NCBI GenBank assembly: GCA_017405115.1
Contig: JAFRBA010000056.1
Location: 94,059 to 158,058 of the forward strand
Length of the DNA: 64,000 nt
Origin: Kiritimatiellia bacterium
Lineage (GTDB): Bacteria; Verrucomicrobiota; Kiritimatiellia; RFP12; UBA1067
Direction: 5' to 3'
Shown piece by piece: positions 10,506 through 32,857 of this stretch. The notes beneath the pieces were generated by a model. It was not told the DNA's origin, did not search any database, and saw only the letters and a list, made by a program, of their open reading frames with translations. The translations under genes and the position numbers were made by a program. Position 1 is the stretch's first letter; every line of letters starts with the position of its first letter.

Positions 10506-11702
10506 ATGAAGAGGAACATGTCATTGGAATGTGCGCTCGTCGCGACGGCCGCGATTATGTCGCTCGCCGTCTCGGCCGGGCCGAACGGCGACCGTCCCGA
10601 CGAACGCCACGCTTGGGCGGTGCATGACGACAACCGCCCGAACGCCCGCGAGGTGCTTACGGACGAGAAGGGCGTGCCGTCCGACGCAATCGTCCTCTTC
10701 GACGGAACTGAGCAGTCCGTCCGCGACCACTGGTGCGACTCGAAGGGCAACGCCACGAAGTGGATCGTTAAGGACGGGCTTTTCGTCTGCGTGCCGAAGT
10801 CCGGCATGGCCTACGCGCGCGACGTCGTGGGCGACTGCCAGCTGCATGTCGAGTTCCGCATTCCCGATCCGCCGGGCGAGGGCCTCGGCAACTCCGGCGT
10901 GTACGTGCACGGCATCTACGAGATCCAGATTCTCCACAGCTTCCGCAATACCGACAAGTTCCACCCGATCCCTCCGTGGAAGCACGCCAACTACGCCGAC
11001 GGCCAGTGCGGGGCGATCTACGGACAGTCCCCGCCGGCCGTGAACCCCGCGCGGGAGCCGGGAAAGTGGCAGTCGTTCGACATCACGTTCCATCCGGCGG
11101 TCTGGGACGGCGAGACGCTCGTCGAGCCGGCGACGCTTTCCGCATACCTGAACGGCGTGCTGATTCAGGACGAATGGAAGCTCGAGGGCCCGACGTATTA
11201 CGTCCGCCGCACGAGCCATGACGCCAAGAAGGAGATCGCCGAACGCTGCGCGGTCGCCCTGCAGGACCACGGCCATCCGGTGGAGTTCCGCAACATCTGG
11301 GTGCGCAGGATCGCCTCCCGCCGCGCCAACACCGTCCACGGCGGAGACTATTTCAACGCGGCGGACGCCAAGAAGCTGCGCGAAAGGCTCGCCGCCGAGA
11401 CATTGGCCAAGGCGCATGCCGCAGAGAATCCCGCGAGCAGGCTCGCCTGGCTGTGGGAGTCTTACTGCTATAGCGCCAATGCCGAAGTGAAGAAGGAGAT
11501 CGATGACCTCACGCCCAAGTACATCGCCCGCATCTCGGCGTGGAAGGGTGCCGTGGACCCGGCCTTCCGCGAGGAGCTCTCGAACATGAGCGGATTCGTG
11601 GGCATGGGCAAGCGCTGCGGACTGTTCACTGACGATTCGCCTTTGGCGAAGGCCGTGGCCGACGCTCTCAAGGCCACGTCGTCGAACGTGAAGCAGTACT
11701 AG
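10506..11702 (+). CDS. Secreted DUF1080 (3-keto-disaccharide hydrolase-like) protein
   Basis: This is a 398-residue protein with an N-terminal Sec signal (about residues 1-25, ending near SAGP). It then has the concanavalin-like DUF1080 fold: SDAIVLFDGTEQSVRDHW, DCQLHVEFRIP, NSGVYVHGIYEIQILHS, WQSFDITFHPAVWDG, ALQDHGHPVEFRNIWVR. Some members cleave 3-keto-glycosides, and many are uncharacterised secreted glycan-binding proteins of PVC bacteria. The C-terminal ~120 residues are helical and not part of DUF1080. A paralogue at 36266 shares the odd segment DERHAWAVHD-x-NRP directly after the signal. This is the last flank-type gene before the A/T-richer island. Confidence 0.82.
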   Translation: MKRNMSLECALVATAAIMSLAVSAGPNGDRPDERHAWAVHDDNRPNAREVLTDEKGVPSDAIVLFDGTEQSVRDHWCDSKGNATKWIVKDGLFVCVPKSGMAYARDVVGDCQLHVEFRIPDPPGEGLGNSGVYVHGIYEIQILHSFRNTDKFHPIPPWKHANYADGQCGAIYGQSPPAVNPAREPGKWQSFDITFHPAVWDGETLVEPATLSAYLNGVLIQDEWKLEGPTYYVRRTSHDAKKEIAERCAVALQDHGHPVEFRNIWVRRIASRRANTVHGGDYFNAADAKKLRERLAAETLAKAHAAENPASRLAWLWESYCYSANAEVKKEIDDLTPKYIARISAWKGAVDPAFREELSNMSGFVGMGKRCGLFTDDSPLAKAVADALKATSSNVKQY

Positions 11703-12181: not shown

Positions 12182-14248
12182 ATGGCAAAGAAATCAAAAG
12201 AAGAAGCCCTTGGCGAAGATCAGTTGATCTGCGTCCTGTCCGGTAATGTGGTGAAGGCAACGCAAAAGGAGCTTAATCTTCAGTCCGTCATCGGGATGAT
12301 GAACGAGGAATACGGCTTCGAGCTTCGGGATATGGAACGGGATTGGTCTGTCGCGTTCGAGGATGAGGACGGGAAGACAAGGCGCACGAAGATAGACCTC
12401 GCCATCTTCGATCAGGACTCCGACCATGAACAGGACAACCTGATCCGGGCGATTGTCGTCAATGACGAGAAAGTCAAGGCCGAGGACAAGAAAAAGGGCG
12501 TCGAGGCGACGCTGGCAAATGTCCTGGAGCATACCGAGTGCGAATTCGGCCTCTGGTCTAACGGCGAGGAGTACCATTTCAAGCAGCGGGTCGAGGACGA
12601 TTACGGCAATGTCGAGGCTGATGACATTGCGGACTTCCCTGCGCGGGGCCAGACGATTGAGGATTTGGAGAATGCAGGCGACCGCGTGCCGCCGCGCAAG
12701 CCCGCGAACGATTCCCTTGTCCGCACATTCAAGCGCTGCCACGACTACATCTACGCAAACGAAGGCATGAAGAAGACTGCCTTCTGGGAACTGTTGAACC
12801 TAATCTTCTGCAAGATCTACGACGAGAAGCGCCGCTTCATGACGAACACAGGCGAATCCTACCGGCGCAGGTTCTGGGTTGGCGTGAGGGAGAAGAACTC
12901 GGAGGAGGGGCTTAAGGCGATCTGGAAGCGCATCAATTCGCTGTTCGACGAGCTGAAGAGCGATGGCGTGTTCTCCGAGGTGTTCGACGGCAATGAGCGC
13001 ATCAACCTGTCGGAGCGCGGGCTTGCTTTTGTGGCGGGCGAACTGGCCAAGTATTCGTTTCTGGATGCGACCGTCGATGTGAAGGGAACGGCCTACGAGA
13101 CGATTGTCTCGAATACGCTCAAACAGGAGGCCGGACAGTTCTTCACGCCCCGGAATGCGATCCGGTGCATGGTGCAGATGATGGACCCCGACGAGAAATG
13201 TCGCGTGTTGGATCCGGCCTGCGGCTCCGGCGGCTTCCTCGTGATGGTGCTGGATCATGTCCGCCGGAAAATCGCGAAGGAGATGTATCCTGAACTTGAC
13301 GAGCTGCATCTCGAGCAGAGATACAATTCCAGCCAGGTCAACGCGCGGGTGAAGAAGTACGCCGAGAACATGCTCTTCGGCTTCGACTTCGACCCGGACC
13401 TCAAGAAGGCCGCGCGGATGAACATGGTGATGGCCGGCGACGGCCACGCCAATATCTTCAACATCAATTCGCTGGAATATCCGCAAGGCGACAAGCCGGA
13501 CGTCGCCAAGGTCGGCCCGAAGGTCAAGTCAAGCGTGCAGAAAGCCGGGGACAAGGCAAGCTGCGAGGCGGACAAGGCGCTTGACAACGCGCTTGGCAAG
13601 TTCGACCTCATCTTCACCAATCCGCCTTTCGGCGCGAAGGTGAAAGTGGACCTCGCGATCTCGCGCAAGTACGCATTGGGCAGGAACTGGAAGAAGGAGG
13701 CGGATGGAACGTTCTCCTCGTCCGAGTCTTCTTCGAGCGAAGCGCCGGAAGTGCTTTTCATCGAACAATGCGAACGCTTCCTCAAGCCGGGCGGAAGGCT
13801 GGCGATCGTCCTTCCCGACGGCATTCTCGGCAATCCCGATTCCGAATCGATCCGCCATTGGATTCTCCGGCATTTCAAGCTGCTGGCGTCCGTCGACCTG
13901 CCGGTGGAGATGTTCCTTCCCCAGGTAGGGGTGCAGGCGTCGTTCCTGTTCCTCCAGAAAAAGACCGAAGCGGAAAAACTGGCCGCAGCCAACGGACGGG
14001 AGGACTACGATGTCTTTATGGCGATTGCGGAGGCTGTTGGAAAGGATCGCCGCGGGCAGCCCATCTACGTGCGCGACGACGACGGCGCGGAAATGACGTT
14101 CGAGGAAGAGAAGAAGACGTTGCTTGTTGACCAGAACGGGCATGAGCGCATTATCCGCAAGCGTGTGACCGTCAAGCATCTCGATGACGACCTCCCAAAT
14201 ATAGCCGTCGCATACGGCAAGTTCCTCAAGAAGGTGGGGAAGGCGTGA
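12182..14248 (+). CDS. hsdM: Type I-like N6-adenine DNA methyltransferase with HSDR_N-like N-terminus
   Basis: This 688-residue protein should methylate adenine in the host's own DNA as the modification subunit of a type I-like system. Residues 1 to about 160 resemble the N-terminal domain found in HsdR and some large HsdM proteins (TKIDLAIFD, EFGLWSNGEEYHF). The expected E-x-K active site is replaced by VVNDEK, so this part is probably not a nuclease. The methylase proper has EAGQFFTPRNAIRCMVQM, motif I DPACGSGGF near residue 343 and catalytic motif IV NPPF near residue 480. Its stop overlaps the GTG of the specificity gene (GTGA). No HsdR translocase-nuclease lies nearby. Instead the operon continues with kinases and ATPases, which points to self-marking in a non-classical system. 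Confidence 0.87.
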   Translation: MAKKSKEEALGEDQLICVLSGNVVKATQKELNLQSVIGMMNEEYGFELRDMERDWSVAFEDEDGKTRRTKIDLAIFDQDSDHEQDNLIRAIVVNDEKVKAEDKKKGVEATLANVLEHTECEFGLWSNGEEYHFKQRVEDDYGNVEADDIADFPARGQTIEDLENAGDRVPPRKPANDSLVRTFKRCHDYIYANEGMKKTAFWELLNLIFCKIYDEKRRFMTNTGESYRRRFWVGVREKNSEEGLKAIWKRINSLFDELKSDGVFSEVFDGNERINLSERGLAFVAGELAKYSFLDATVDVKGTAYETIVSNTLKQEAGQFFTPRNAIRCMVQMMDPDEKCRVLDPACGSGGFLVMVLDHVRRKIAKEMYPELDELHLEQRYNSSQVNARVKKYAENMLFGFDFDPDLKKAARMNMVMAGDGHANIFNINSLEYPQGDKPDVAKVGPKVKSSVQKAGDKASCEADKALDNALGKFDLIFTNPPFGAKVKVDLAISRKYALGRNWKKEADGTFSSSESSSSEAPEVLFIEQCERFLKPGGRLAIVLPDGILGNPDSESIRHWILRHFKLLASVDLPVEMFLPQVGVQASFLFLQKKTEAEKLAAANGREDYDVFMAIAEAVGKDRRGQPIYVRDDDGAEMTFEEEKKTLLVDQNGHERIIRKRVTVKHLDDDLPNIAVAYGKFLKKVGKA

Positions 14249-15678
14249 AGACGACCGCTGTCACCTTGAGCGCAGTATTGCGTTCAGACGGAGAACGATT
14301 CAACCCGCCATATTTCTTAAATGCGGCGGTTGACTATTACAATGGACTGACGCATTGTTCATACAGTGTCACTACACTTGGACAGGAATGTGAAGATGCA
14401 TTTGCCGGGAACATTTTCTCGCGACGTTTTGTGAAGGACAAGGAACATGGGGTTCCTTATCTGACACCAACAGAGATGTTGAAAGCCGATATGTCGCAGG
14501 CAAAGCTACTATCGAAGAAACAGGCTGATGCTTTGTCGTACTTGAGAGTTAGATCAGGATGGATTTTGATATCGTGTTCTGGTTCAGCCGCACTTGGATC
14601 GGTGGCATTGGCGAATGAACGTCACGAACAGATGATAGCCACTCACGACCTAATTCGGTTTGTCCCCCAAGAGAGAAATCTAAAGGTCGGTGTTATATTT
14701 GCATTCTTGCGAAGCAAATATGGCAAAACAACCCTAACACATTCACAATACGGTTCCTGTATTCTTCACATCATTCCTGATCATGTGAAGTCGATTCAAA
14801 TCCCCGTATTTCCAGCTGCTTTTCAGAAGAAGGTGCATGAGCGGATCATGGAATCGGCGAGATTGCGCGAAGAAGCGGATGCAGAAGAAAAAGAGGCTGA
14901 TAGAAAACTTCTCGACTATACAAGGTTGCGGCCACTAACACCAGAGGGCTATAATTATTTTGGCCCGAGGTCATCAAGAAGGACTATCAGCACGTTTTCC
15001 CTCAAGATCGGGTCTGTGACTGAGTTGTCGATAAATGCGTTCAATTATTCTGAACGAATGCGAAAGACGGTTGATTATGTCAGATCGACATGCGAGACCA
15101 TACCATTGTCCGAGACATTGTCCGGGGGAGGATTTTTCTCAACGGGTTCTTTCCCGCGAATGGAACTTGATTCCCCAAAATCTTTATTGTTGATAAACCA
15201 GTCGGACATCTTTAACGCTAGACTTACCGGGAAGAAGATAGCGCGTCGAGGAGTGAAGGCAAAATCGTTAGTTGAATACGGCGAGGTGATTATTGCTGGG
15301 GTTGGAACGCTCGGTGAGACTGAGTCATTTTGTCGTGTCGTGTTTGCGAATGAATCGCTGGTGGGGCAGCTTATCTCTGGTGAATTTATTCGGATGAAGA
15401 CGACTGACAAGATCCCGCCGGGATATCTATACGCTTGGCTCCATTCTGATTATGGCTTTCGGATGATTAGATCCACACAGGCGGGGACGAAATTGTGTCG
15501 ACCTATACAGAAATTGTTGTTGCTGATGCCAGTTCCGGTTTTGGGGAGTTCGCAAATGAATGAGATTAATCAACTGGTACTTACTTCTCAAACGAAAAGA
15601 GCCCGAGCGGCGGATTTGGAGAACGAGGCGATAGATATGGTCGAACGTGAAATCGAATCTTGGCAGGAGGGCGATTGA
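14245..15678 (+). CDS. hsdS: Type I-like specificity subunit (HsdS)
   Basis: This 477-residue protein should select the DNA sequence methylated by the partner HsdM. It has two target-recognition halves (about residues 35-190 and 280-440). Each ends in a helical spacer typical of HsdS, for example FQKKVHERIMESARLREEADAEEKEADRKLL and MNEINQLVLTSQTKRARAADLENEA. Segments such as VPYLTPTEM and VIIAGVGTLGETESF are typical of TRDs. The start is GTG, overlapping the hsdM stop. The gene is visibly more A/T-rich than hsdM, as expected for fast-exchanging TRD regions. The two halves differ, implying a bipartite target that cannot be predicted from sequence. Confidence 0.82.
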   Translation: MKTTAVTLSAVLRSDGERFNPPYFLNAAVDYYNGLTHCSYSVTTLGQECEDAFAGNIFSRRFVKDKEHGVPYLTPTEMLKADMSQAKLLSKKQADALSYLRVRSGWILISCSGSAALGSVALANERHEQMIATHDLIRFVPQERNLKVGVIFAFLRSKYGKTTLTHSQYGSCILHIIPDHVKSIQIPVFPAAFQKKVHERIMESARLREEADAEEKEADRKLLDYTRLRPLTPEGYNYFGPRSSRRTISTFSLKIGSVTELSINAFNYSERMRKTVDYVRSTCETIPLSETLSGGGFFSTGSFPRMELDSPKSLLLINQSDIFNARLTGKKIARRGVKAKSLVEYGEVIIAGVGTLGETESFCRVVFANESLVGQLISGEFIRMKTTDKIPPGYLYAWLHSDYGFRMIRSTQAGTKLCRPIQKLLLLMPVPVLGSSQMNEINQLVLTSQTKRARAADLENEAIDMVEREIESWQEGD

Positions 15679-15679
15679 C

Positions 15680-16420
15680 ATGTGCATGCTACATTTTAGG
15701 CATAGCGATTCAAGCGTGCGATATCGCAGCAGACCTGTCAAGGATGGGCCTGAAGCACGCATGCTTGAGACTTTTATGTCCCAATACGAGAAACGGTTGA
15801 AAGGTGACGGCGGCGACTATGCGATCTTCTACGAGCCGCAGATGCCAACTGGATACCCTGATTGCGTCATTGTGAAATTCGATGCTTCAGCCTATGACGG
15901 TTGGAGTAGAAACGCTGTACCATTGTCCGATACCGACCTGAAAATATTGCATGTCATTATCCGGTCGGGCGGGCTGACAGCAGGAACATTGGCACGTACA
16001 ATCGGATTTGAGCTGGATGCTGTAAATAGGGCTCTGTCGAATCTGCACGGGCGCGGTTTTGTAGAGGCACGTGGGTCCCGCTGGGTGGCGGCACCTCGCA
16101 AAAGATGTTCGGGGATACGCAACATCTTGTCGATTGAGGCGAAGATGTCTGATTGCAGCGGGGTACTTGACCAGGCGGTGTTGAACAAGACATTCGCAAA
16201 CTCGTCGTGCGTCCTCATGCCGACGAGACGCCCGTCACATGAGACGCTTTCAGTAGCCATGGAGACCGGTCTTGGAATCTATCTTCAGCCAGAGCAAGGG
16301 CATGCGGAACAGGTTCTTAAGCCCTGCTTGTACGGTGGCCTGAGAGCGTCATACGCGGTTTGGCGTTTGAACGAATGGATCGGGCGCAGACTTGCAAAAA
16401 CCAGGAGGAATACAAGATGA
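15680..16420 (+). CDS. Winged-helix protein of the defence operon, function unknown
   Basis: This 246-residue protein lies between hsdS and a kinase gene. Residues about 80-140 look like a winged helix (LSDTDLKILHVIIRSGGLTAGTLARTIGFELDAVNRALSNLHGRGFVE... with the wing SRWVAA). The N-terminal ~70 residues include EARMLETFMSQYEKRL and DYAIFYEPQ, which resembles a small alpha/beta domain. The C-terminal third has no recognised motif. The start at 15680 has GGAGGG eight bases upstream. The stop overlaps the kinase ATG (ATGA), so the two are translationally coupled. It could be a regulator or a DNA-sensing adaptor, and neither is proven. Confidence 0.6.
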   Translation: MCMLHFRHSDSSVRYRSRPVKDGPEARMLETFMSQYEKRLKGDGGDYAIFYEPQMPTGYPDCVIVKFDASAYDGWSRNAVPLSDTDLKILHVIIRSGGLTAGTLARTIGFELDAVNRALSNLHGRGFVEARGSRWVAAPRKRCSGIRNILSIEAKMSDCSGVLDQAVLNKTFANSSCVLMPTRRPSHETLSVAMETGLGIYLQPEQGHAEQVLKPCLYGGLRASYAVWRLNEWIGRRLAKTRRNTR

Positions 16421-17274
16421 GCGGATTCAAAATCGCAGTAGATCAAGTTCAGTTACAGTCGTCATTCCCTAGGCTTAGCGGTCTGCGGGTTTTGAAGAGC
16501 GGCGGGCAAAAGGATGTCTATGCGGCGGAGAGCGCCGACTACGGCCCTGTCGTCCTAAAGCTGATGCCGATAGGCCCAAACGGGCTGTCGCCACGTATTT
16601 GCCGCGAAATCGAGATTGTCACCTCGCGCACTTTCACGGGTGTGCCCCGGATATTCGAGCAAGGAACCGTTTCGGTTGGCAGCGTCGATGCCGCATTCAT
16701 CATTGAACAGCGGATCGAGGGAAGGGAACTGCGGGCAATTCTCGTGGACGAAGGCAAGCAGTCGAAGGAATTTGTCGTCGCGATGATGAAGTCGCTTCTT
16801 GTGACGCTTTGCGAATTAGAACAGAATAGGATTGTCCATCGAGACATCAAGCCGGACAACATTGTCGTTGATGGGGAGGGGAAGTTCTGGTTGTTGGATT
16901 TCGGGATCGCCCGCGATCTTGATGCGGTGTCCTTGACGATGACGAGCGAGAAAATGGGGCCTCTCTCGCCTGGTTATGCCGCGCCAGAGCAAGTGATGAA
17001 CTTCAAGCGCCAGATTGACACGCGGTCGGACTTGTTTTCTGTTGGTGTAACTGCGTATGAACTGCTGGCAGGGCGTCATCCGTTCGCGGTGGCCAATGCG
17101 AATCCGCTTGCCGTGATCGTCCAGTCGGTGACAACGGACGTCGATACGCTGGATATCGACGACGACCCCAAGGGTGAATTGGCGGCGTTTGTCAAGACGC
17201 TTATGAACAAACAGCAGACTTTTCGTCCGCCAACGGCGAAGATGGCGCTGGAATGGCTGAATTCCATATCGTGA
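16417..17274 (+). CDS. Serine/threonine protein kinase of the defence operon
   Basis: This is a 285-residue cytoplasmic Hanks-type kinase with every catalytic element visible: a glycine-rich loop (SGGQKDVYAA), the ATP-anchoring Lys in VVLKLMP near residue 48, HRDIKPDN (141-148), DFG (161-163) and AAPEQ. It is only the catalytic domain, with no membrane helix or sensor, so input must come from a partner. Overlap with the winged-helix gene (ATGA) and the later kinase-containing protein at 19030 suggest a phosphorylation cascade within the system. Active kinases also occur in Pgl (PglW) and in MADS-type defence. The start follows AGGAGG at the usual distance. Confidence 0.88.
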   Translation: MSGFKIAVDQVQLQSSFPRLSGLRVLKSGGQKDVYAAESADYGPVVLKLMPIGPNGLSPRICREIEIVTSRTFTGVPRIFEQGTVSVGSVDAAFIIEQRIEGRELRAILVDEGKQSKEFVVAMMKSLLVTLCELEQNRIVHRDIKPDNIVVDGEGKFWLLDFGIARDLDAVSLTMTSEKMGPLSPGYAAPEQVMNFKRQIDTRSDLFSVGVTAYELLAGRHPFAVANANPLAVIVQSVTTDVDTLDIDDDPKGELAAFVKTLMNKQQTFRPPTAKMALEWLNSIS

Positions 17275-17284
17275 GGGGGTGATG

Positions 17285-18472
17285 ATGAAACTCTTTTTCC
17301 AGTGCGGAAGTGGCGTCAAAAAGCTTTCAAAACGGCTGTCGGAGACAATGCCGGGAGGCACGTATATTCTGAGTCCCCGGGACTTGAGCCAGAAGAGTCA
17401 AGTTTCATTTGCAAAAGAATTGCGAAAGAGCGGCAACAGCACGTTGTTTGATCCGCAATTGTACGCGCCACACAGCGACAAGAAGAATTTTCAGACATAC
17501 ACCTACTGGCCGAAAGATTTCAATACGGCAGAGGCCCCTTGGAAAGAGATTGTCATCAGTCTTGCGGAATTCAACGAGGTGCTTGGAACCTCTGCGTATA
17601 TCTTGCCGGGGATGCCATGTGAGCATGTCGGCGGTACGTATCTTCGTCTGCACGAGAGCATTTTCGACGCTGCGTCTGACTTTGCTAACGAGAAATTGGC
17701 GACGGTCTGCCTGAAACAGAATGTCCTTCTTGATACGATGCAAGTGGAGAAATTGCTTGTTGCGACCGAACAGTGGCCCGTGGCGGGCGTTTATCTCATT
17801 GCGGAACATCCAGACGATGACTATTTTGTTGACAGTCCAGTATGGATGTTGAATCTTCTGAAGCTTTGTTCTGGCTTGACCATCCAGAGGAAGAAAGTCG
17901 TCCTTGGCTACTCGAACCACCAGATGCTTCCTGTGGCTTGCGCGGGTGTTCATGCCATTGCATCCGGCAATTGGATGAACGCACGTTCGTTCACATTCGA
18001 CAAGTTCTTCGATTCGGATGAAATCAAGCGCCATAAAATGTGGTATTATGCGCCACAGGCATACACGGAATTCTCTCCTGCATACCTTGATCTTGCCAAA
18101 AATGTGGGTAAATTGCCAATACTGGCACCTCCCAATGGCGTTGACACGCCGGCGTCGATACTTTTCTCGGGAGCGATGCCCTCGTCCGTCAACTATACGA
18201 ACGAGATGTCCTTTTGGCATTACCTGTACTGCCTGGACCGACAGGTGAGGGAGGTCTCCGCTCCGTATACATTCCAAGGACGAGTGGCCAAATGCCGTGA
18301 ATCCGCCGAGGCGGCCAAGAAGAGACTTGAGTTCCTGCACAAATACCGTATCAATGGACAGAATAGAGATTTCTTGGATTATTTTGACGTAAATGCCACG
18401 GCTCTTGATCTTTTTGAGAGCCAGGCTGGCGCACTCCTATCACGCATGAATCATCTATATAGGGAAGCATGA
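17285..18472 (+). CDS. Conserved hypothetical protein of the defence operon
   Basis: This protein of 395 residues is of unrecognised function. It begins MKLFFQCGSGVKKLSKRL and reads like a compact alpha/beta enzyme, with alternating hydrophobic strands (TYILSPRDL, KEIVISLAEF, AGVYLIAEHPDDDYF, KKVVLGYSNHQ, GVHAIASGNWMNARSF, WYYAPQAYTEFSP) in the rhythm of a TIM barrel. The blocks GGTYILSPRDL, LFDPQLY and HAIASGNWMNARSF might allow recognition by profile search. A distant tRNA-guanine-transglycosylase-like barrel is one possibility but I cannot confirm it. ATG codons at 17282 and 17285 and a GTG at 17279 are all possible starts. 17285 has the best spacing from the GAGGGGG site. Confidence 0.55.
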   Translation: MKLFFQCGSGVKKLSKRLSETMPGGTYILSPRDLSQKSQVSFAKELRKSGNSTLFDPQLYAPHSDKKNFQTYTYWPKDFNTAEAPWKEIVISLAEFNEVLGTSAYILPGMPCEHVGGTYLRLHESIFDAASDFANEKLATVCLKQNVLLDTMQVEKLLVATEQWPVAGVYLIAEHPDDDYFVDSPVWMLNLLKLCSGLTIQRKKVVLGYSNHQMLPVACAGVHAIASGNWMNARSFTFDKFFDSDEIKRHKMWYYAPQAYTEFSPAYLDLAKNVGKLPILAPPNGVDTPASILFSGAMPSSVNYTNEMSFWHYLYCLDRQVREVSAPYTFQGRVAKCRESAEAAKKRLEFLHKYRINGQNRDFLDYFDVNATALDLFESQAGALLSRMNHLYREA

Positions 18473-18473
18473 A

Positions 18474-19008
18474 ATGGCCGTTGCAGAGTACATGGAACTC
18501 ACTGGGGTTAAGCGAAATACGGCGACGGCGGACCTTGTTGCGCTGGCGAAGGCGGGTGTGGTCAAGCGCGTTGGCGCGGGACGCGGTGCAACATACGTTC
18601 TTCAGAAATGCACAATAAATGCACAAAATGCACAATCCAATGTCAATGCGGCGAAAAAGAGCGTGAATATTGTGGAAAATGGCAGAATATATGCTGAAAA
18701 TGGCAGACTAGGAGATGGAATAAATGAGGGAATAACGGGTCATGATGCCGCAAATGAGGGAATAACGAGTGGGGATAATGTTCGTCCGGACAATAAGCTG
18801 GACAATAATCGGACAATAAACCGGACATTAGATGATGTTGTCATTGAAGTGATTAGAATGTCACCTGGGATAAACAGAGCTGGGGTTACTTACGGAGGCG
18901 GTTGGCAGACGGAGATCCGTTGTCGCCGAGGCAATTGCAAGGCTGAAGGTTGCTGGCAAGATTGAGTATCGCGGCAGTAAGAAAACGGGTGGGTATTTCG
19001 CGCTATGA
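18474..19008 (+). pseudogene. Truncated, frameshifted AlbA/Fic-type C-terminal winged-helix remnant
   Basis: The frame from 18474 begins directly within a winged helix (VAEYMELTGVKRNTATADLVALAKAGVVKRVG), as found at the C-terminus of AlbA_2 (RecG-like) or Fic-type regulators. The N-terminal domains are missing. Near 18876-18882 the frame breaks. In the original frame translation ends at 18965. In the +1 frame the normal family ending follows (TEAVGRRRSVVAEAIARL, then KIEYRGSKKTGGYF) to a stop at 19008. One lost base restores a continuous domain. The Asn-rich centre is repetitive (ENGRIYAENGRLGDG, DNKLDNNRTINRT). It sits between intact defence genes and splits the island into two blocks. Confidence 0.7.
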
Positions 19009-19029
19009 TAGACACGTAGGAGTGAACTT

Positions 19030-22000
19030 ATGGCAAAGGTCATCTATTCGTCGTTTGTAGATCGGGATGCGGCTCAGGTCGGTGAGCGCCGGCTGGTGAA
19101 GTTCTTGGAGGAGAGGCTTCCCAATTCCTACATGATCATTCCGAACGCGGAATACCCGAGCAATTTCTGCGGCGTGGTGCAATGCTGGGAATATGACTGT
19201 ATCGTGGTGGCGCCGCACGGAATCTACAACATCGAGAACAAGGACTGGCGGGGGGATGTCGGCGGAACGGACCAGGTGTGGTATCACAATGGGGTTCGGT
19301 GCAACAATCCGCTCAAGACATGTCGGCACAAGACAGGCGTGCTTGTGGGATTGTTGAAGGACTACGACCCTGCACTTAGGGCGGCCTGGGTCGATTCGCT
19401 TGTTACACTCTCCAATCCACACCAGACCGATAAGCATGGGTTCAGCAAGTCCAGCCATTCGTACGATCGCATCTTCATTCTCGGGGACGAACTCATCGCG
19501 CATCTGACCGATCCGGCGAGAATCGGAAAAACCGAGAACTGCATCTTGCATCTAATGAGCAAACTGATGAACTGCCTCGTCTGGGAGGATCGCGATCTTC
19601 CGTCCGCGGGCAGCCAGTCGAACATCCTTGAGTTCTCCATCAAGACGCTGGTGCACGACGAGACGCCCGAGAAGCCGTGGCGCGAGTACATCGCCGAGAC
19701 GCAGGGACTCGTCAAGACGGAGAAGGTCATTCGCGCTTATCGGCTCGACCCGCCTGCGCTCACGGAGGGCGAGCGACGGGTCCGGACGGAGCAGATCCGC
19801 AACCAGAGCTATGCGCTGGAGAAGGTCGGAGCGCACCCGAACATCTTCCCGACCGATTCGCGCATCATGGAAAGCGCACAGCAGTTCTTCGAGATTTTCG
19901 ACTATCTGCCGGGAGCAACGTTGCGCGAGGTCTGGAAGAAGCGAGAACTGACGTGCGAAGAGAAGCTTGAGATCGTCTTCGGGCTGTGCGCGGCGCTCAA
20001 GGCTGCGCATGAAGCGAAGGTCATCCACCGCGCGGTGTGTCCGGAAAACGTGATCTACAATTCCAGAGTCGCCCGGCTCGCTAATTTCTCCGGCGCGTTC
20101 TTCGACGAGCATGTACAGGCGGGCTTCACGATTCCGCGCCCAATAGACGAGAGCACGGTGTCGGCCTACGATGCGCCAGAACTCGCCGAACACAAGATGA
20201 CCGCGGCGAGCGACATATATTCCTTTGGCGTCCTGTTGTATGAGCTGTATCTCGGAAAGGTGCCGGTCGCGAACTTTTACCAGTTGAACCAGCTTGGGGG
20301 AGCGTTGCCCGACAATCTGATGCCGACGAAGGTCAACGTTCTTCTGCCGCCTTGGCTCGACACGGTTGTCCGCAAGTCGGTGGTGCTTGACCCGAATGGC
20401 CGGTGGCAGAGCGTTTCCGAGATTCACGACTTCATACGGAGCGAAATCAGCGCGTCCGTCACGCCGGGCACGAGAGAGGTTGCGGCGACGGCGGAACAGG
20501 AGCTGGCGCCTGGGATGATGGCCACGCCAGAGCTGTTCCTCGTCGAACAGCTGGGATCCGGCGGGTACTCGAAGGTCTTCAGGGCGCACCACCGGCTGCA
20601 GGACTGCGATTTTGCGCTTAAGGTGTATAACGAGAGCGTGTCCATCCGCAGCGCGACGGACGAATACAGGGTCTTGAGCGCGCTTAGCCACAAGAACATC
20701 GTGAAGTTCGTCTACAACGGACTGACGAACAACGGACGGTTCTACACGATGATGGAACTTGTGAAGGGGCCGAACCTCTCCAAGTTCACGGGGCAGGGCG
20801 ATCTGCACCTGCCCTTGCGAGACGTCTACCGGCTTGCGGACAATGTGCTTGACGCCCTGACATATCTCCAGTCGATGAAGGCGCCGGTGTTCCATCGCGA
20901 CATCAAGCCGCAGAACATCCTTCACGACGAGGCGCGAGACCAGTTTGTGCTGACCGATTTCAACATCTCGGCTGTTGCGGACGCCGACAGTGATCTTGTC
21001 GGGACTCAGCCGTACATTCCGCCGGACCTGATTCGCGACGGCACGAAAGTCAACTGGGACAAGAGCGCGGATCCTTTTGCCTTCGGCATTACGCTCTACG
21101 AACTCGTCTGTCGGGCGTATCCGTGGTCTGGCGTCCGGATGCCGCAGCTTGGCGTCAAGCCTGAGGATCCGCGGAAGCACAATCCGAAGGTCAGCCCCGC
21201 GTTTGCCGCGTTCCTCTTGAAGAGCATTGGTTGCGCGCGAGACGCGCGCTTTGCGAATGCCCGGGAGATGTGGGACGCATTGAAGGCCATCGGCCCCGAG
21301 GGAATTTGGGCGAACGTGCAGCGGGCGGTTCCCAGTGACGCGGGTGAAGTCGAGACCGGGGAGTTCGTCCGATATCTCAACACGCTTTACAGCCAGAGCA
21401 AGTTCGGTAACTGCGGGACGAGGTGTGCGGCGGAGGCGAACCCCCTTGACGAGGCAACCTACATCCAGACGAAGCTAGACACGAAGCTCCTGACGGCGAT
21501 TTGCGACGGTACCTACAAGCTGGTGATCATCACTGGCAACGCGGGCGACGGCAAGACGGCGTTCCTTCGCAAGATCGAGGCTGGGGCTGAGAATGTCAAG
21601 AGACTCGAGCATTCCAACGGCGCGACGTTCACGATCGCGGGAATTCCATTCGAGAGCAACTACGACGGCTCGCAGGATGAGGAAGCCAAGGTGAACGACG
21701 ACGTCCTTATGGCCTTCTTCCGTCCGTTTGCCGGGCTCGAGGATTTTTCGGAGGCGAACGAAGGGCGCGTGATCGCCATCAACGAGGGCAAGCTCGCGGA
21801 TTTTCTTGCAAAGGAGAAGTCGCTTGCCGCGCTGAGCGATGTAATCGACAGGTATTTCAACTCCGAAGGGAAGGTCGAGTTGCCGAAGGGGCTGATGGTG
21901 ATAAATCTCAACCTTCGAAGCGTCACGGCTCCTGACGAGGACGGAGAGTCGCTGTTCCGCAAGCAGCTCCGGGCGTTCTGTGATTCGAGATTCTGGAGCC

Positions 22001-23139: not shown

Positions 23140-23142
23140 GTC

Positions 23143-24696
23143 ATGGCCGTGCATCTCAACAAGGAAGAGTCGGTTTTCCGCAACGAGCTTGTTTTTGCGC
23201 CAGACGCAAAGGCGGTGAATCTCGAGAACACGCTCACCAACCTGTTCATGCAGATTCGCTACGACGGGAACCGCGTCAAGTCGAAGGTCCGCAGTGAGCA
23301 CACGCTCGATTCGCTGTACGGCTACATGTGCGCCTGCGAGCGGGACGGAAGCATGTCTGGCGTGGCGGAGAACAAGGACGCGGTCGAGGCATGGCTGCGC
23401 TGCAACCTGGCCAACTTGGTGTTTCGCGGCAATCTTTCGAAGGAGAAGCTTTCGTCGCTTCGTCCAATGCACCTTGAGGCGTTCAGGATCCGCAACCTTA
23501 AGCATACGCGCGACTACTTCACGGCCGACCAGGTGTATCAGATGCTGAAGTCCAGGCCTGAGATACTCGCCAGACTGAAGGAGTATCTGGCCCGGGGATT
23601 TGACCCGGCGACGAACTTCATCACGCAGGGGCAGCAGCTGGACATTGACACCGTGGCGATTCTCCATCTGGTCAAGAACGTGAAGATGGATGTCCGTTCG
23701 ACGACCAGGCTTAGGCAAACGACGCCGTTCCTGAAGAGACAGGCCGAACTGTTCTGCGATGACGTCCTGCGTCTTCTCTGGTATCAGGATGTCGTTCCTA
23801 AGTCCGTGATGATCGAATATCTCAGGGTGCTTGTGGGGTTCCACCTCGCCCTCTATGCCTACAGGCTGATTGCGCTGATGCCGAAGATGGCAGTGGAAGG
23901 CAGCCGGGACGTGGTGGACGACTGGAGCATGGTCGTGGATGCGAGCGGCCGGCTCGACAGCCCTCTTGAGGCGGTGGCGTGTGCGGACGTAGAGCGCAGC
24001 ATAAACGGCCTCAACGACTATTTCAGGGCGATTTTCGCTTTCAACGTCGTGCAGAGCAAGCTTCAGAACACTGGGCATGAAGACGATGTCGATTACATTC
24101 TGCGCGAGCTCAAGGAGCGGCCTGCCGACCTGCTGGCGTATGCGAAAATGAGGATGGACGATGTATTCCGCAGATTCTCGGAAGACGAGGAGGAGGAGGA
24201 GTCGGATCTTCGCCGGCACATCCAGTACGAAAAAGACGACTTCGAGAGGTACGTTGCGATACTGACGCGGGTCAAGGGCCCGTACCAGTACAAGTTCTAC
24301 CAGAAGTTTCTTGATAACGTGTCGATGAAGAACTCTGACAGCGCGTTTATGTCGGGTGGTAGGAGCACGAAGCACGCCCGACGCGGCGTATTGGGCGCCA
24401 AGCTTGCGGAACTCCTTGTGCAGCTGCTGGTCCTCAAGGAGCGGGCAGGCGAAGGCGGATTTGAGACAAGGGCGCTTTCGGTTTCGGAGCTGATCCGCGC
24501 GATCAGGGATCGTTATGGGCTGATCATCGACGGGACGCACGAGGATCGTTTCTCAAAGTCAGATGTGCAGACCCAGCTCGCGTTCCGGGCGAATGTCGAG
24601 GCGTTCAAGGACAAGCTTCGTCAGATAGGGTTTTACACAGATTTGAGCGACGCTGGAACGCTACAGAAAATCCGTCCACGTTACAACAAGGCGTAA
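23143..24696 (+). CDS. Conserved hypothetical protein in the DptG-like position
   Basis: This is a 517-residue mostly helical cytoplasmic protein with no recognised catalytic motif. It lies between the kinase/ATPase gene (4-base gap) and the HerA-like gene (4-base gap), so the three are one translation block. In DptFGH-type phosphorothioation-dependent restriction the same order is DptF ATPase, DptG (a helical protein of about 430-450 residues), DptH (about 1700 residues). This protein takes the DptG place by position and character, though I could not confirm homology. An acidic run EDEEEEESDLRR lies near residue 350. A structural or scaffold role for the neighbouring ATPases is a reasonable guess. 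Confidence 0.55.
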   Translation: MAVHLNKEESVFRNELVFAPDAKAVNLENTLTNLFMQIRYDGNRVKSKVRSEHTLDSLYGYMCACERDGSMSGVAENKDAVEAWLRCNLANLVFRGNLSKEKLSSLRPMHLEAFRIRNLKHTRDYFTADQVYQMLKSRPEILARLKEYLARGFDPATNFITQGQQLDIDTVAILHLVKNVKMDVRSTTRLRQTTPFLKRQAELFCDDVLRLLWYQDVVPKSVMIEYLRVLVGFHLALYAYRLIALMPKMAVEGSRDVVDDWSMVVDASGRLDSPLEAVACADVERSINGLNDYFRAIFAFNVVQSKLQNTGHEDDVDYILRELKERPADLLAYAKMRMDDVFRRFSEDEEEEESDLRRHIQYEKDDFERYVAILTRVKGPYQYKFYQKFLDNVSMKNSDSAFMSGGRSTKHARRGVLGAKLAELLVQLLVLKERAGEGGFETRALSVSELIRAIRDRYGLIIDGTHEDRFSKSDVQTQLAFRANVEAFKDKLRQIGFYTDLSDAGTLQKIRPRYNKA

Positions 24697-24699
24697 GTC

Positions 24700-27600
24700 A
24701 TGCAGAACATCCAGAAATTATATCGCGAGGAATTGAGGCGGTCCGTTCTCGAAGAGTTTTCCGGGGCCTTCAGCGAAGCCTCTGCCGGAACCTGCATGAA
24801 GTTGACCGGTCTTCCTCTGGACGACTTGGTTGCGATTCGCGAAATGATTGTCCGCGATTATCCGTCGCTCAAGGTTGTGGTGCTGACAGACGGCGGCTTT
24901 TCCGCCGATTACGCCATAACGGCAACCAAGCTGATAGAGCTAAGAAACATGGGGCAGGATCCAATTCTCGTGCTGATTCCGTCGGCGCTTCAGACGCCGG
25001 CGGAAGACTCCTACGGGAACGCAACTTTCAAGGAGCTGTCGATCGCCGGAATCGATGACAGGATCTTGTCTAAGCTAAATGCGGAAACTCCGGAAGATGT
25101 CGCCGTGCTTGCGAAGGAGGTTGTGGATTTTGCCCAGGAGGCGACTAAAATCGACCGTATCAGCTATCTGCTTGCGTTGCGACATCGCGGCTGGGATCGG
25201 ATTGGCGTCGGCGAGGAGATGAACTGGATTGGACTGATTCCGGACACGGGGGTTCCAGCCGATGCGGCAAAATGGCGGACCCGCCTGTACTACAACAGGA
25301 TGTGCTCGGTCATCTTGAGCGATTTTGCGCTTTTGGTACCAGATCGGGTCGCAAAGCTACCTGTCAGACCCGAGACAATCCAGCCGCTTGTTGCACAGTT
25401 CCTTGGTGGGTGTCCGGCAAGAGACAGGCTCGGAATCATGTGCGGTATTCGCGAGGCTGACAATTTTGCCGAGCTCGATTTCGCCAGGTGGCAGATACCC
25501 GAGATAGAGGACTGCAGACAGCTCAACCTTCAGATCGTCGCAAGCGAATTGTCGTCCCCGCACATACGCATTCAGGACGGCGACAAGACGCTAGTTCTGA
25601 AGCAGGGGCAGACGGCGACGCTTAAGATGCGGCTTGCCATTAATCCGCCGCCAAATGACTTCCCGGAGCTGAAGGTCTTCAGAATCATGTTGGTGTCGAC
25701 GGATGGTAATGTTGAGATACAGGAGGCGAAGCGGGCAAAGGTTACCAGCAATGCGCGTTCTTACCGCGACATATCTATCAAGGTGTCTTCCGAGTCGTTT
25801 GAAGAGGGAACCTACTATCTTCGTGTCTACGGTGAGGACGAGGTCGGCAATGTCCTCAACAGGGAAGACGATTTCAAGAATGCCGAGGTTCAGGAGGCGT
25901 GGTTGGCCAAGCGTAGGGTCGATGGCGACGCCAGCCATGCGGAATTCAAGGCGGAGACCTCTGCAAAGACAGTGAACGAGACGGAGGACGTGTATTTCAG
26001 CTTCAGCGCCGACGAACAGGAAGGCGAAGACGAACAGGACGAAAGTGAGAAGGCGTTGCGCAAGGACAAGCTTGACGCGGCATATCAGGCCTATTTCAAG
26101 TATCGTCTTGGTCTGCTGAAGAACGATAAGGAGCTGGATTTCCCAGTGCTGGACGCGCGTGCGACAGGGTGGATGGCACCGAAGGGGGCCGGACAGCAGA
26201 AAGTCTATCGCCTCAAGTTCGGTGCGGCCGACAATTACCAGATATCGGTCTCCAGCAAGCTGTTCGTGCTGGAGTCGGAGCTGCTGAAGAACGGCAATGC
26301 GTTCGGAAGCATCAAATGCCGAACATTTGCAAACCCGAACCATACGGCGTTTGATTCGGTAGAATTTGTTCCTTGCGCAGATCCAAAGCTGCTTAGCATT
26401 GCCGACAAGCGAAAGAGGTTATTTGACTTGATCCGCGCGTCGGCGAGCGACGATTCTGGCATATTCGAGACGTGGCTTGATTTCTGCAGAAGCGATAACA
26501 TTGAATTGGTCAAGGACTATGTGACCGCCTACCTAGACGCCATCAACGAAATCAACGCAGACGTGCGGAACCATGCTGGGGATGCCGCAGCGCTTAAACG
26601 TCTGGCAGACATTCAGAATCTTGATACGGTCTATCTTGAATCTCCGGTCGGAGGAAGGCGAGATTGTTCGGTGAAATTGATGACGCCGATTCATCCGTTG
26701 AGATTGGCCTGGTTCGTCGATTTGTTCGAGCTGTATTCGAATTGGGAACAGAAGACAGCAGAAGATGCGTCTCATCGAAAGGAGTGGACGGCCGCGACGG
26801 CAGCAATCTTCCTCGGAGGGGTGTATCCCTCGAACAATCCGCTGATTATAGCACAGTCGACGTCAAGGTATTACCAGTATTCGGGGGAGATAGTTTTCGG
26901 CTGGGGGGCTTGGGTGCCGAATGACGACGCCCACAGGACCGTGAACCTTTCCAGCGAAAGGCAGGTGAAGGTCCATGTCGCCGAACAGCTCAATCTTCCG
27001 TGCGATGCGCGCATTGACACTGACGTGAGCGAGACGATGATCGTCCGCTATGTCCGAAACTACGTGAAACAGCATCCGTACGCAGACAAGCTCGTAATCA
27101 ATGTCTTCAATCCCGGTGACGGTGCTTCTTTTGTAAGGTCGTTGATTGATTTAGAGCAAAGGGCTCCTGATCGCTACCAGTATGAATTCAGGCTCTATTG
27201 CGAAGACGACTTTGTCGTTCCCGGCGAGGCCTTCAGGGAATTGATGAATCCGGAGAGCGTCATTTCGGAAAAGGCGGAGGCGTTTTCCGAGGCGGCGGCG
27301 AATCGTCTTTTCCCGAAGATGCGGTTCTCGCTGAATCGAATATCTGATTATTCCGAGCATGCGCAGGACTATACGGCGAATTTGTCCTTTTTGGTCAATC
27401 CCTTCGTTTCTCGGTGCAAGTTGGTCACGCCTGATTCGAATCATCGTTCGGATGCGTTGGACGGAGTGGTCGTGCAGCCCGTCACTTCCTTTGAGAAGCA
27501 GGCAGGCGATTTGCTGTGGAGCAAGTCTGTGTTTTGCGATGAAGGCACAGACGGGGCGCGGGCATTCTACCATGAGGGGAATCGGCTGCTTAACAGCTGG

Positions 27601-30090
27601 CAGAAACTGACGGCAATGGTCATGAACCCAGTGCCGTTAGATGTTGTGCCTGGTACTTCCGTCAGGATCGGTGTGGCGGAAAAGGCGATGATCACTCAGA
27701 TACATGCATATTCGGACTGGGTGATCACGTTTGACAAGTGCATAGGCCCCGAGATTTTTGACTCCCAAAACAGCGAAGACACCTGTCCGTATCTGCTTGA
27801 CTATGTGCCAGGCGGAGAGTTGTTCGGCGTTTCGGCGTTTTTGACGACAAGACCGGGATTTGAGGCCTACCGGTTCCTGGAGCCCTATTTAAACGAGGCG
27901 GGACTGCAGTCGCTGGCGATTCGGGAGAACATGCTTCGCATGCTTGAGGACATTCGGACGATTAGTGGGTCGTTGCTTTTGCAGGCGATTGCTACCGACA
28001 ACAAGGCGTTTGAAGTAATTGGACTTGCCTTGACCAAGCGGATGCTCGAGAAGAAGGGATATCTGCGAGGGGCGTTTCTGGTCCCGATCGACTTGCACAA
28101 GGAGCTGTTTGATGTCCAGGACGATGAATCAAGGGAACGCGCCGATCTTGTGCTGGCGAGACTGGATGTCGAGAATCGGGAGATTCATTTTGATGTAGTA
28201 GAGGTCAAGTGCCGGACTGTCTTGACCGAAGTGATGCAGGAGTCCCTTGAGGAGAAGGTCTTTGCCCAGATTGAACATTCCATAAAGGCGTTCAGGACTC
28301 ACTTCGAAATCGGATATCAGCCTGGCCCAGACAGGATTGATCGTCCCGTAAAGAATCTAGAACTGCGAAAGTTGCTGGAGTTCTATATCGAGCGAGCCTT
28401 CCGCTTTGGACAGATGGATCCGCAGGTTCGGCGCGATTACCTAGCCTTCTGTGCGTCTCTTGACGAAGGATATTCGATGTCTTTCGATCCGCTTGAAATT
28501 ATCTACAATTTCTCGGCGGAACAGGCTCACAAGAAGGAGGTGACCGATCGGTTTACGCGCTACACGATAGGCAAGTCGCTGATCGCCGACATTATGGACC
28601 AGCAGTGTGATTTGAATACGCTGCGGCTGGAAGAGACATTGCGTCGCATGGATCCAGTACCTTTGTGTCCTCCGCCGGTGAGCCACGGCAATGAAGCTTC
28701 GGCATTACAGAATGTCGATGGCGAATTGGAGGCCGGACCTGAAGTACAGGAACCTGCGAGGATCGCGCCTGACGGTATTGAAACACAAGATTTGTCCGAG
28801 AAGTCGGTAGATTCCGAGGTGCCGGAGCATGTTGCATCGACGTGTGGTAGTGGCGCGCCGTCATCTAGTGGCCAAATGCCATCTGTAGATTTTGATACCC
28901 TTGTTGGAGGGAATGCCGCCCCGGGTCAGTTTGGATTGCTGGGGGTGCAAAAGGCCAATGGGCGTCGAATCGCATTGGATTTGTCCGAGACGACAACCAT
29001 TAGCCTGTTTGGAGTCCAGGGCGCGGGCAAGAGCTATACGATTGGAACGATAGCGGAGATGGTGTTGAAGCAAATACCGAACGTGAATCATCTGCCGTCG
29101 CCTCTCGCTGGAGTGATCTTTCATTATAGCGAGAGCATGGACTATGCGCCCGAGTTCACCTCAATGAACAGGCCGAACGATAAGGCGACGGATGTTCAGA
29201 AGCTTCTTGAGCAGTATCATGCATCGCCAAATGCAGTGGAAGATATTGTCTTATTGACGCCAAGAGCTAAGATGCAAGAGCGCAAGACGCAGTATCCCGA
29301 GATCGAAGTGCGGCCTATTGCATTCAAGTCTTCGGAGTTGAATGTCAAGGATTGGCAGTTCCTCCTTGGGGCGGTCGGCAATGATTCGATGTACATCAAG
29401 CAGATCAACTCGATCATGCGCAATATTCGTAATAATCTTTCCCTTGAAACGTTAAGGACCGCCGTGCAGAATTCGGCGTTGCTTACTAACACCCAAAAAG
29501 CTTTGGCTGCACAACGTTTTCAGTTTGCCGAAGAGTACATCGACGATACGGCGGAATTAAGTTCTGTGCTTAAGCCTGGTCGCCTTGTTATTGTGGATTT
29601 ACGTGATGAGTTTATCCAGAAGGACGAGGCCCTGGGACTGTTTGTGGTGATGCTGAACATTTTCTCCAGCGTCACCGAGAATGAGGGGCGGCGTTTCAAT
29701 AAGTTCATTGTGTTTGACGAGGCGCATAAATACATGGATAACAAGGATTTGACGAACAACATCGTCACCGCGATTCGCGAGATGCGGCATAAAGGTGTAT
29801 CGTTGATGATTGCCAGTCAGGATCCGCCGAGCTTACCGTCCGAGATCATTGAACTGAGTAGCGTTGTACTTATGCATAAATTCAATAGCCCGTCTTGGCT
29901 GAAACACATTCAGAAATCGACTACTTCGCTTTCGCATGTTCAAAATACGGAAATGGCGGCACTCTCGCCGGGAGAGGCTTTCCTTTGGGCTAATAAATCT
30001 ACAGATAGGCAAATTGAGACCCGGCCAGTTAAAATCGTAACTCGACCGAGGGTCACAAAACATGGCGGAGCTACCGTCACGGCTGTGTAG
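24700..30090 (+). CDS. HerA-like (DptH-like) ATPase with PD-(D/E)XK nuclease-like motif
   Basis: This is a 1796-residue protein. The C-terminal ~370 residues are a HerA/FtsK-type motor: LFGVQGAGKSYTIGTIAE (Walker A near residue 1440), KFIVFDEAHKYM (Walker B near 1670), MIASQDPPSLP as sensor, and a basic terminal region. Around residues 1145-1175 the segment ADLVLARLDVENREIHFDVVEVKCR matches the D...(D/E)-x-K core of PD-(D/E)XK nucleases. The first ~1100 residues are large and uncharacterised, with an alpha/beta start (LKVVVLTDGGF, DPILVLIPSALQ) and an Ig-like part near residues 290-380. Size, order and motor match DptH. If the nuclease motif is active, this is the likely DNA-cutting effector that replaces the missing HsdR. 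Confidence 0.75.
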   Translation: MQNIQKLYREELRRSVLEEFSGAFSEASAGTCMKLTGLPLDDLVAIREMIVRDYPSLKVVVLTDGGFSADYAITATKLIELRNMGQDPILVLIPSALQTPAEDSYGNATFKELSIAGIDDRILSKLNAETPEDVAVLAKEVVDFAQEATKIDRISYLLALRHRGWDRIGVGEEMNWIGLIPDTGVPADAAKWRTRLYYNRMCSVILSDFALLVPDRVAKLPVRPETIQPLVAQFLGGCPARDRLGIMCGIREADNFAELDFARWQIPEIEDCRQLNLQIVASELSSPHIRIQDGDKTLVLKQGQTATLKMRLAINPPPNDFPELKVFRIMLVSTDGNVEIQEAKRAKVTSNARSYRDISIKVSSESFEEGTYYLRVYGEDEVGNVLNREDDFKNAEVQEAWLAKRRVDGDASHAEFKAETSAKTVNETEDVYFSFSADEQEGEDEQDESEKALRKDKLDAAYQAYFKYRLGLLKNDKELDFPVLDARATGWMAPKGAGQQKVYRLKFGAADNYQISVSSKLFVLESELLKNGNAFGSIKCRTFANPNHTAFDSVEFVPCADPKLLSIADKRKRLFDLIRASASDDSGIFETWLDFCRSDNIELVKDYVTAYLDAINEINADVRNHAGDAAALKRLADIQNLDTVYLESPVGGRRDCSVKLMTPIHPLRLAWFVDLFELYSNWEQKTAEDASHRKEWTAATAAIFLGGVYPSNNPLIIAQSTSRYYQYSGEIVFGWGAWVPNDDAHRTVNLSSERQVKVHVAEQLNLPCDARIDTDVSETMIVRYVRNYVKQHPYADKLVINVFNPGDGASFVRSLIDLEQRAPDRYQYEFRLYCEDDFVVPGEAFRELMNPESVISEKAEAFSEAAANRLFPKMRFSLNRISDYSEHAQDYTANLSFLVNPFVSRCKLVTPDSNHRSDALDGVVVQPVTSFEKQAGDLLWSKSVFCDEGTDGARAFYHEGNRLLNSWQKLTAMVMNPVPLDVVPGTSVRIGVAEKAMITQIHAYSDWVITFDKCIGPEIFDSQNSEDTCPYLLDYVPGGELFGVSAFLTTRPGFEAYRFLEPYLNEAGLQSLAIRENMLRMLEDIRTISGSLLLQAIATDNKAFEVIGLALTKRMLEKKGYLRGAFLVPIDLHKELFDVQDDESRERADLVLARLDVENREIHFDVVEVKCRTVLTEVMQESLEEKVFAQIEHSIKAFRTHFEIGYQPGPDRIDRPVKNLELRKLLEFYIERAFRFGQMDPQVRRDYLAFCASLDEGYSMSFDPLEIIYNFSAEQAHKKEVTDRFTRYTIGKSLIADIMDQQCDLNTLRLEETLRRMDPVPLCPPPVSHGNEASALQNVDGELEAGPEVQEPARIAPDGIETQDLSEKSVDSEVPEHVASTCGSGAPSSSGQMPSVDFDTLVGGNAAPGQFGLLGVQKANGRRIALDLSETTTISLFGVQGAGKSYTIGTIAEMVLKQIPNVNHLPSPLAGVIFHYSESMDYAPEFTSMNRPNDKATDVQKLLEQYHASPNAVEDIVLLTPRAKMQERKTQYPEIEVRPIAFKSSELNVKDWQFLLGAVGNDSMYIKQINSIMRNIRNNLSLETLRTAVQNSALLTNTQKALAAQRFQFAEEYIDDTAELSSVLKPGRLVIVDLRDEFIQKDEALGLFVVMLNIFSSVTENEGRRFNKFIVFDEAHKYMDNKDLTNNIVTAIREMRHKGVSLMIASQDPPSLPSEIIELSSVVLMHKFNSPSWLKHIQKSTTSLSHVQNTEMAALSPGEAFLWANKSTDRQIETRPVKIVTRPRVTKHGGATVTAV

Positions 30091-31237: not shown

Positions 31238-31262
31238 CTATGTGAATAATCGGAGGATGGAA

Positions 31263-32822: not shown

Positions 32823-32857
32823 ACAATGGTCTAAAGGGAAAAGCGAAAGGCAGGAAC

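Follow-up and report, generated by a model that had tools for sequence, protein, structure and literature searches.

The defence locus fills positions 12182–30090 of the 64 kb stretch of DNA analysed here (the window, within which the coordinates in Table 1 are given) and comprises nine plus-strand open reading frames (ORFs) with overlaps or short gaps between them. Genes of a methylation-associated defence system (MADS) are arranged in the order mad2-mad5-(insert)-mad6-mad7-mad8, the insert being made up of three genes, here called the trio, and a short ORF of HTH type. The one-strand gene block that an earlier note had described from the letters of the DNA was found where that note had placed it. 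The domain calls of the note also stood (N6-methylase, specificity subunit, winged helix, Ser/Thr kinase, NERD/inactive kinase/active kinase/P-loop, helical protein and HerA-like ATPase), and its gene list was incomplete, with the 163-aa HTH ORF omitted.

Table 1 Features of the defence locus in the window
Feature	Position	Strand	Evidence
mad2, adenine-specific DNA methyltransferase, 688 aa	12182..14248	+	NF047738 814 bits, cut-off 720; Pfam N6_Mtase 7e-34
mad5, specificity subunit, 477 aa	14245..15678	+	NF047740 472 bits, cut-off 400
trio gene 1, predicted PD-(D/E)xK nuclease, winged helix inserted in fold	15680..16420	+	conserved residues and model
trio gene 2, Ser/Thr kinase	16417..17274	+	Pfam Pkinase 2.5e-27; catalytic motifs present
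trio gene 3, predicted tRNA-guanine-transglycosylase (TGT) fold, without family model	17285..18472	+	predicted fold
HTH-type ORF, 163 aa	18474..18965	+	Pfam DIP2311-like_C 33.8 bits, cut-off 27
mad6, NERD nuclease, pseudokinase, kinase, DndF-like P-loop domain, 1369 aa	19030..23139	+	NF047741 559 bits, cut-off 460
mad7, DndG/SspG-like	23143..24696	+	NF047733 542 bits, cut-off 410; PADLOC mad7 4e-51; SspG 30 bits
mad8, DndH-like, restriction-nuclease motif and HerA/FtsK-type ATPase, 1796 aa	24700..30090	+	NF047742 157 bits, below cut-off 175; PADLOC mad8 5.5e-38 over C-terminal ATPase

As first called, the ORFs encode 688, 477, 257, 304, 397, 163, 1369, 517 and 1796 aa, in this order. Better starts lie downstream for the winged-helix ORF (15680, two bases past the mad5 stop), the kinase ORF (16417, with an ATG that overlaps the preceding stop) and the 397-aa ORF (17285 or 17282). 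The HTH-like tail of the 163-aa ORF goes on downstream in another frame, and the ORF is probably the broken C-terminal end of some other gene; a plasmid search gave no match to it. An origin from an SLFN_AlbA_2 gene, an idea taken from a related locus on a viral contig (L138), is possible at most, the blastp match having an E-value of 0.02 over just 23 residues.

The G+C content of the defence genes (0.46–0.58) is lower than that of the flanks (0.64 and 0.62). Third-position G+C is 0.76–0.78 in mad2, mad6 and mad7, and 0.57–0.66 in the trio; mad8 (0.63) is trio-like and mad5 (0.47) lower still, so that composition is no proof of insertion. Pattern scans gave no clear excess over shuffled sequences for sigma-70 promoters (15 against 11.0, s.d. 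3.4) or terminators (18 against 18.7, s.d. 4.7).

The MADS frame and its relatives

Full MADS is an eight-gene set, and the gene names used here were taken from NCBIfam and PADLOC. Maestri et al. 2024 is reportedly the founding description, with an eight-gene content that agrees with these names. The curated NCBIfam cut-offs are passed by MAD2, MAD5, MAD6 and MAD7 (four of the five proteins), and MAD8, which scores below its cut-off, aligns with the MAD8 proteins of eight loci. The five E-values of the MADS-model matches, from 4.6e-46 to 6.9e-245, rule out chance. The assignment to a MADS-related system made in the earlier note is thus borne out by four models above cut-off. Searches of the window with proteins of four MADS loci (L081, L082, L129 and L130) did not find mad1, mad3 or mad4 (best E-value 0.11), and the locus is therefore classed as a MADS variant and not as full MADS.

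Residues 34–142 of MAD2 match Pfam HSDR_N_2 (26.2 bits, cut-off 25), a nuclease-like N-terminal domain of R subunits. This weak match and the adjoining HsdM- and HsdS-like genes would suit an ordinary type I restriction-modification system that has lost HsdR, a reading that we reject as exceedingly improbable, since both genes score above cut-offs specific to MADS and have MAD6-7-8 downstream. The absence of an HsdR gene, also claimed previously, holds for the whole 64 kb, in which three type I HsdR queries (identified by Pfam) gave nothing better than an E-value of 0.13.

Two sets of MADS loci were compared with the window. A Piscinibacter plasmid (L082) carries genes for an HTH protein, methylase, AAA ATPase, small protein, S subunit, kinase, MAD7 and MAD8, in which the labels mad1 (HTH), mad3 (ATPase) and mad4 (small protein) were assigned by position; three further loci (L122, L129 and L130) resemble it from mad2 through mad8. 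The second set, without a mad3 or mad4 match, comprises plasmids of Bacteroides finegoldii (L081), Hymenobacter (L139) and Phocaeicola (L140, where the mad2 frame is split into two ORFs) and the viral contig L138. The MAD2 protein of the window is 57–64% identical over the best piece to this second set, as against 38–39% to L082, L122, L129 and L130.

In seven of the eight other MADS loci with a visible mad5–mad6 junction, the two genes overlap or lie no more than 26 bases apart. On the viral contig L138, a full SLFN_AlbA_2/HATPase_c_4 gene (positions 3904–5673 of that contig) lies between mad5 and mad6, which is the slot of the trio in the window. Sixteen loci with MADS or MAD7 were examined (L081, L082, L122–L132 and L138–L140), and none has the trio.

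Surveys with the MAD7 model NF047733 found matches above the cut-off in 2 of 337 genomes, in none of 96 (an overlapping set from the same phylum), in none of 395 and in 3 of 398. Among the 11 regions fetched from them, L122, L129 and L130 hold full MADS and L123 ends inside mad6. Two more (L125 and L131) are rearranged MADS-like loci, with the C-terminal part of mad6 and mad7 followed by mad2 and mad5, and neither matched the kinase half of MAD6; the remainder (L124, L126–L128 and L132) are weakly MADS-related only. Within the nearest order, none of 161 genomes gave a MAD7 match and none of 155 a match to the TGT-fold family, in searches without a positive-control signal, and a search aimed at Bacteroidota relatives gave no matches among just 8 genomes. 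The PVC-type host proposed in the earlier note fits the result for a flank protein, which had best identities of 70–77% in 115 genomes of a single phylum, chosen by way of a Victivallales locus. An empty-site search recovered two regions (L144 and L145) in which the synteny of three left-flank genes stops before the island.

A PP2C-type phosphatase gene directly follows mad8 in L081 (annotated), L138 and L140 (32% and 41% matches), three of the four MADS loci nearest to the window; the window gives no match to it. Such a phosphatase may balance the kinases.

Catalytic motifs of MAD6 and MAD8 were followed in an alignment of the window proteins with eight relatives (nine rows). All nine MAD6 rows keep the NERD motif D..[ED]-x-K, the HxD aspartate and DFN of the second kinase (HRD in five) and the Walker A and asparagine-type Walker B motifs. 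In the window, the HRD motif of the first MAD6 kinase reads HRA; three relatives retain HRD at this point. The D..E-x-K, Walker A and DE[AC]H motifs of MAD8 are likewise common to all nine aligned proteins.

MAD6-7-8 fit the plan of DndF, DndG and DndH as given in PMC10853773, in which DndF carries NERD, an inactive and an active kinase, and DndH a nuclease and a HerA/FtsK ATPase. The DptFGH-like ATPase block of the earlier note is accordingly MAD6-7-8, on the PADLOC and NCBIfam matches and this published plan. The block differs from DndFGH/SspFGH in being coupled to an adenine methylase and a specificity subunit. PglW of type 2 BREX shares the N-terminal NERD/kinase half (PMC12839542), and the order of NERD, inactive kinase and active kinase is the same, with PglW matches of 204–207 bits over the N-terminal half of MAD6; however, the C-terminal half of MAD6 is DndF-like, and neither PglZ nor BrxC is among the matches listed for the nine proteins. 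The closest likeness is to MADS itself, with mad2, mad5, mad6, mad7 and mad8 in the same order and on the same strand and with their motifs kept; the differences are the undetected mad1, mad3 and mad4, the trio between mad5 and mad6, and a MAD8 score under the NCBI cut-off. The frame is thus a MADS variant, and what is new here is the trio.

Going by their families, MAD2 and MAD5 would methylate adenines at chosen sites, and MAD6-7-8, a DndFGH-like machine, would recognise invading DNA without this mark. Movement along the DNA may be driven by the HerA-like ATPase, with cutting by the putative MAD8 nuclease, and the NERD and kinase domains of MAD6 could be extra effectors or switches.

The three genes between mad5 and mad6

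Trio gene 1 is predicted, from its conserved residues and a structural model, to encode a PD-(D/E)xK nuclease with a winged helix in the fold. D72 is kept in 73 of 74 rows and E164 and K166 in all 74, the full residue set being present in 72–74 of 74, and the order of strands and helices in the model puts D and E-x-K on core strands. The kinase encoded by gene 2 keeps K67, E83, HRD (160–162), N167 and DFG (180–182) in 73–77 of 77 rows, and all of them are present in the window protein.

The 397-aa protein of gene 3 is predicted to adopt a TGT fold, with other TIM barrels placed close behind TGT by Foldseek. Kinship with TGTs was not found at the sequence level (hhalign probability of 0.2%), and PF01702 is absent from the 11 families listed for 32 members of the family at E-values up to 1. 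Of the 40 conserved positions, twelve lie among 48 residues that follow barrel strands (P 0.001) and none among 42 that precede them, a clustering that makes an active-site pattern. From the strand order and TGT motifs, D58 may match the general base, and the nucleophile position looks lost.

The predicted fold raises the question of a DpdA-like modifier of DNA bases, which would set a 7-deazaguanine self mark while the nuclease restricts unmarked DNA. Dpd and BRC systems, as described in PMC12839542, pair TGTs with restriction genes and so resemble the trio in having a TGT-fold protein beside a nuclease. Moreover, 7-deazaguanines should often be available, since 26 of 27 trio genomes have a canonical tgt gene and 18 of the 27 a queC match over the cut-off (six more have one under it). 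This reading is nevertheless unlikely, and a marking role is the less likely one for the TGT-fold protein, given that no sequence similarity to TGTs was found and that no other neighbour gene is widely conserved across trio loci. From the Dpd and BRC systems, the trio differs in these two respects and in its dedicated kinase. The three trio genomes in which queC is unmatched, two of them isolates (Flagellimonas and Streptococcus cristatus), also count against it, a point weakened by incomplete genomes and salvage.

Relatives of the trio were collected with a profile of the 397-aa protein and a pattern scan over one genome each from 84,980 species, which gave 89 relatives, of which 80 loci were kept; these numbers are a lower bound. 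Beside the TGT-fold gene there is a kinase match in 79 of the 80 loci and a nuclease match in 74, some of the kinase matches being partial (77 and 71 loci, respectively, with stricter clustering). The sole kinase miss (L072) is at a contig end, as are four of the nuclease misses (L006, L028, L050 and L072); the other two (L061 and L073) may be true absences. L063, L071 and L078 have the nuclease gene next to the others but in reverse orientation. No further gene cluster reaches more than five of the 80 loci, and four of these five are almost identical copies from Bacteroidota.

These copies (L037, L039, L040 and L041), labelled as four genera, have near-identical trios and common neighbours and look like a recently moved element.

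By record title, the hosts belong to many bacterial phyla and include one Thermoplasmatales archaeon. The trio tree requires 32 changes of phylum label, between the minimum of 20 and the 47.9 of shuffled labels, so that vertical signal and probable transfers are both present. Each of the five viral contigs recovered has the complete trio (two of them, L133 and L136, are nearly the same), and the TGT-fold protein had no tblastn match among 50,697 phage records. Plasmids yielded one distant TGT-fold match (24%, L083), with a kinase match beside it.

Genes 1 and 3 are named as a defence system by none of PADLOC 2023, NCBIfam 2026 and Pfam, and the locus points to an unnamed three-gene module in many phyla. 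No MADS model names the trio genes of the insert as such, the kinase matching mad6 via the kinase domain only, and no description of the trio was found in the openly available literature searched, including PMC13092281.

The earlier note had taken the proteins encoded by the trio (winged-helix, kinase and unknown) as parts of one composite operon. Contrary to this, the trio stands in 80 loci without a match to MAD5, MAD7 or MAD8 as fetched (at most 10 kb per side, often less), three of them within type-3 BREX. The trio could still be integral to this particular MADS, filling the roles of the missing mad3-mad4 (the AAA ATPase and its partner): coupling is tight, with starts that overlap or lie a few bases from the preceding stop, and an insert of similar size is present where mad3-mad4 were not found. 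We consider this improbable, however, because L081, L139 and L140 are MADS without mad3-mad4 that do without the trio as well. It is probable instead that an independent three-gene module entered a restriction system of MADS type at the mad5–mad6 junction, as a second line, and that this system lacks mad1, mad3 and mad4. What seemed a bespoke nine-gene operon would then resolve into two separable systems.

Nesting in BREX and a proposed defensive role

Three of the loci (L003, L022 and L056) have the trio between pglX and the helicase gene of a type-3 BREX system, in the same gene order as in the window and directly after the methylase gene, the host system being BREX rather than MADS. PglZ_3 is matched there with 876, 858 and 846 bits (cut-off 250), PADLOC PglXI with 1441, 1510 and 1023 bits and BrxHI/II with 1582, 1522 and 1395 bits, respectively. 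PADLOC BrxC scores 2116 bits in L003 and 1867 in L056, and BrxA 324 in L003; the remaining BREX set of L022 and L056 was matched by tblastn from L003. The N-terminal part of the TGT-fold gene is out of frame in L056. Gene content and BREX nesting are well supported, and nesting of the trio is so far seen once in MADS and three times in BREX. Backup nucleases within BREX loci are described in general terms in PMC12839542.

The BREX-nested trios fall within one supported branch of seven rows, and each has neighbours in the tree that gave no BREX match (L001, L011, L018 and L019; of these, L011 and L019 are short contigs). This interleaving suggests that nesting was gained or lost more than once. 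The window trio has a long branch and its placement in the tree is not firm. A close tie to the BREX-nested clade is not claimed: the nearest rows by path are L056, L022 and L003, and one clade is not rejected (p 0.68), but the branch is long and the group was defined once the first tree had been inspected.

Neighbouring genes were compared with PADLOC families at 1e-15. Matches to 85 families were made by 109 of 365 trio-neighbour ORFs, against 12 families by 117 control ORFs, counts that refer to families and not genes, with heavily overlapping methylase models. Of 20 control stretches, 17 were long enough to be used, and they included a pPIWI locus; one sampled trio neighbour was the BREX pglX of L056. 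The comparison lends mild support to the trio neighbourhood as a defence island. MAD2-type methylase matches lie near the trio in L012, L062, L067 and L068, and type I HsdR genes in L024, L062 and L068. A methylase motif scan says little, since it flagged four of the 80 loci and missed known methylases in L012, L022 and L056. From this company and from the enzyme types, we infer that the trio is defensive.

The kinase and the winged-helix protein might instead mainly control the operon, in the style of CapK–CapS. Kinase-repressor pairs that switch immune operons exist (PMC13373217), and gene 1 does carry a winged helix. This is very unlikely, because the nuclease residue set of gene 1 is conserved, no downstream operon is common to the trio loci, and the trio proteins differ from CapK and CapS, which are a GHKL kinase and a STAS protein, respectively.

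We favour a sequence of sensing, relaying and cutting. The TGT-fold protein, by its conservation and fold, would be a sensor that binds or alters a nucleic-acid base; the kinase would relay the signal, and the winged-helix nuclease would cut DNA. Within one operon with the MADS genes, the trio may act on its own as a second defence, of use against phages that block the system based on methylation. More broadly, we propose tentatively, with a little less than even confidence, that the trio, which occurs across bacteria and into archaea, is an as yet unnamed anti-phage system able to stand alone, with a TGT-fold sensor, a relaying kinase and a winged-helix nuclease. As a plug-in, it would have been inserted more than once right after the modification genes of systems based on methylation (three type-3 BREX and one MADS), and its TGT fold would read or alter a base in invading nucleic acid without the usual chemistry. 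If the trio is defensive, its position behind methylase genes in two systems offers a direct test case for how bacteria back up restriction in the face of phages that counter it, and the pairing of a TGT fold with a Ser/Thr kinase would be a new combination in immunity.

Genes flanking the defence block

Downstream of mad8, an ORF at 31242–31820 resembles, by a motif, the start and end of an SLFN_AlbA_2 protein with the middle missing; it has no Pfam hit and no good match to the SLFN_AlbA_2 protein of L138. At 31833–34432, 1.7 kb past mad8, a metallophosphoesterase gene (PADLOC PDC-S10, 148 bits) overlaps the start of a gene for a sigma-54 activator (RtcR-type CARF models, 286 bits). Two fused genes lie further on, one combining an alpha/beta hydrolase with a MetW domain (40023–41792) and the other GH31 with an MGH1-like glycoside hydrolase (52102–55947). 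Genes for 3-keto-disaccharide hydrolases are present on both sides of the defence block (10506–11702 and 36266–37378).
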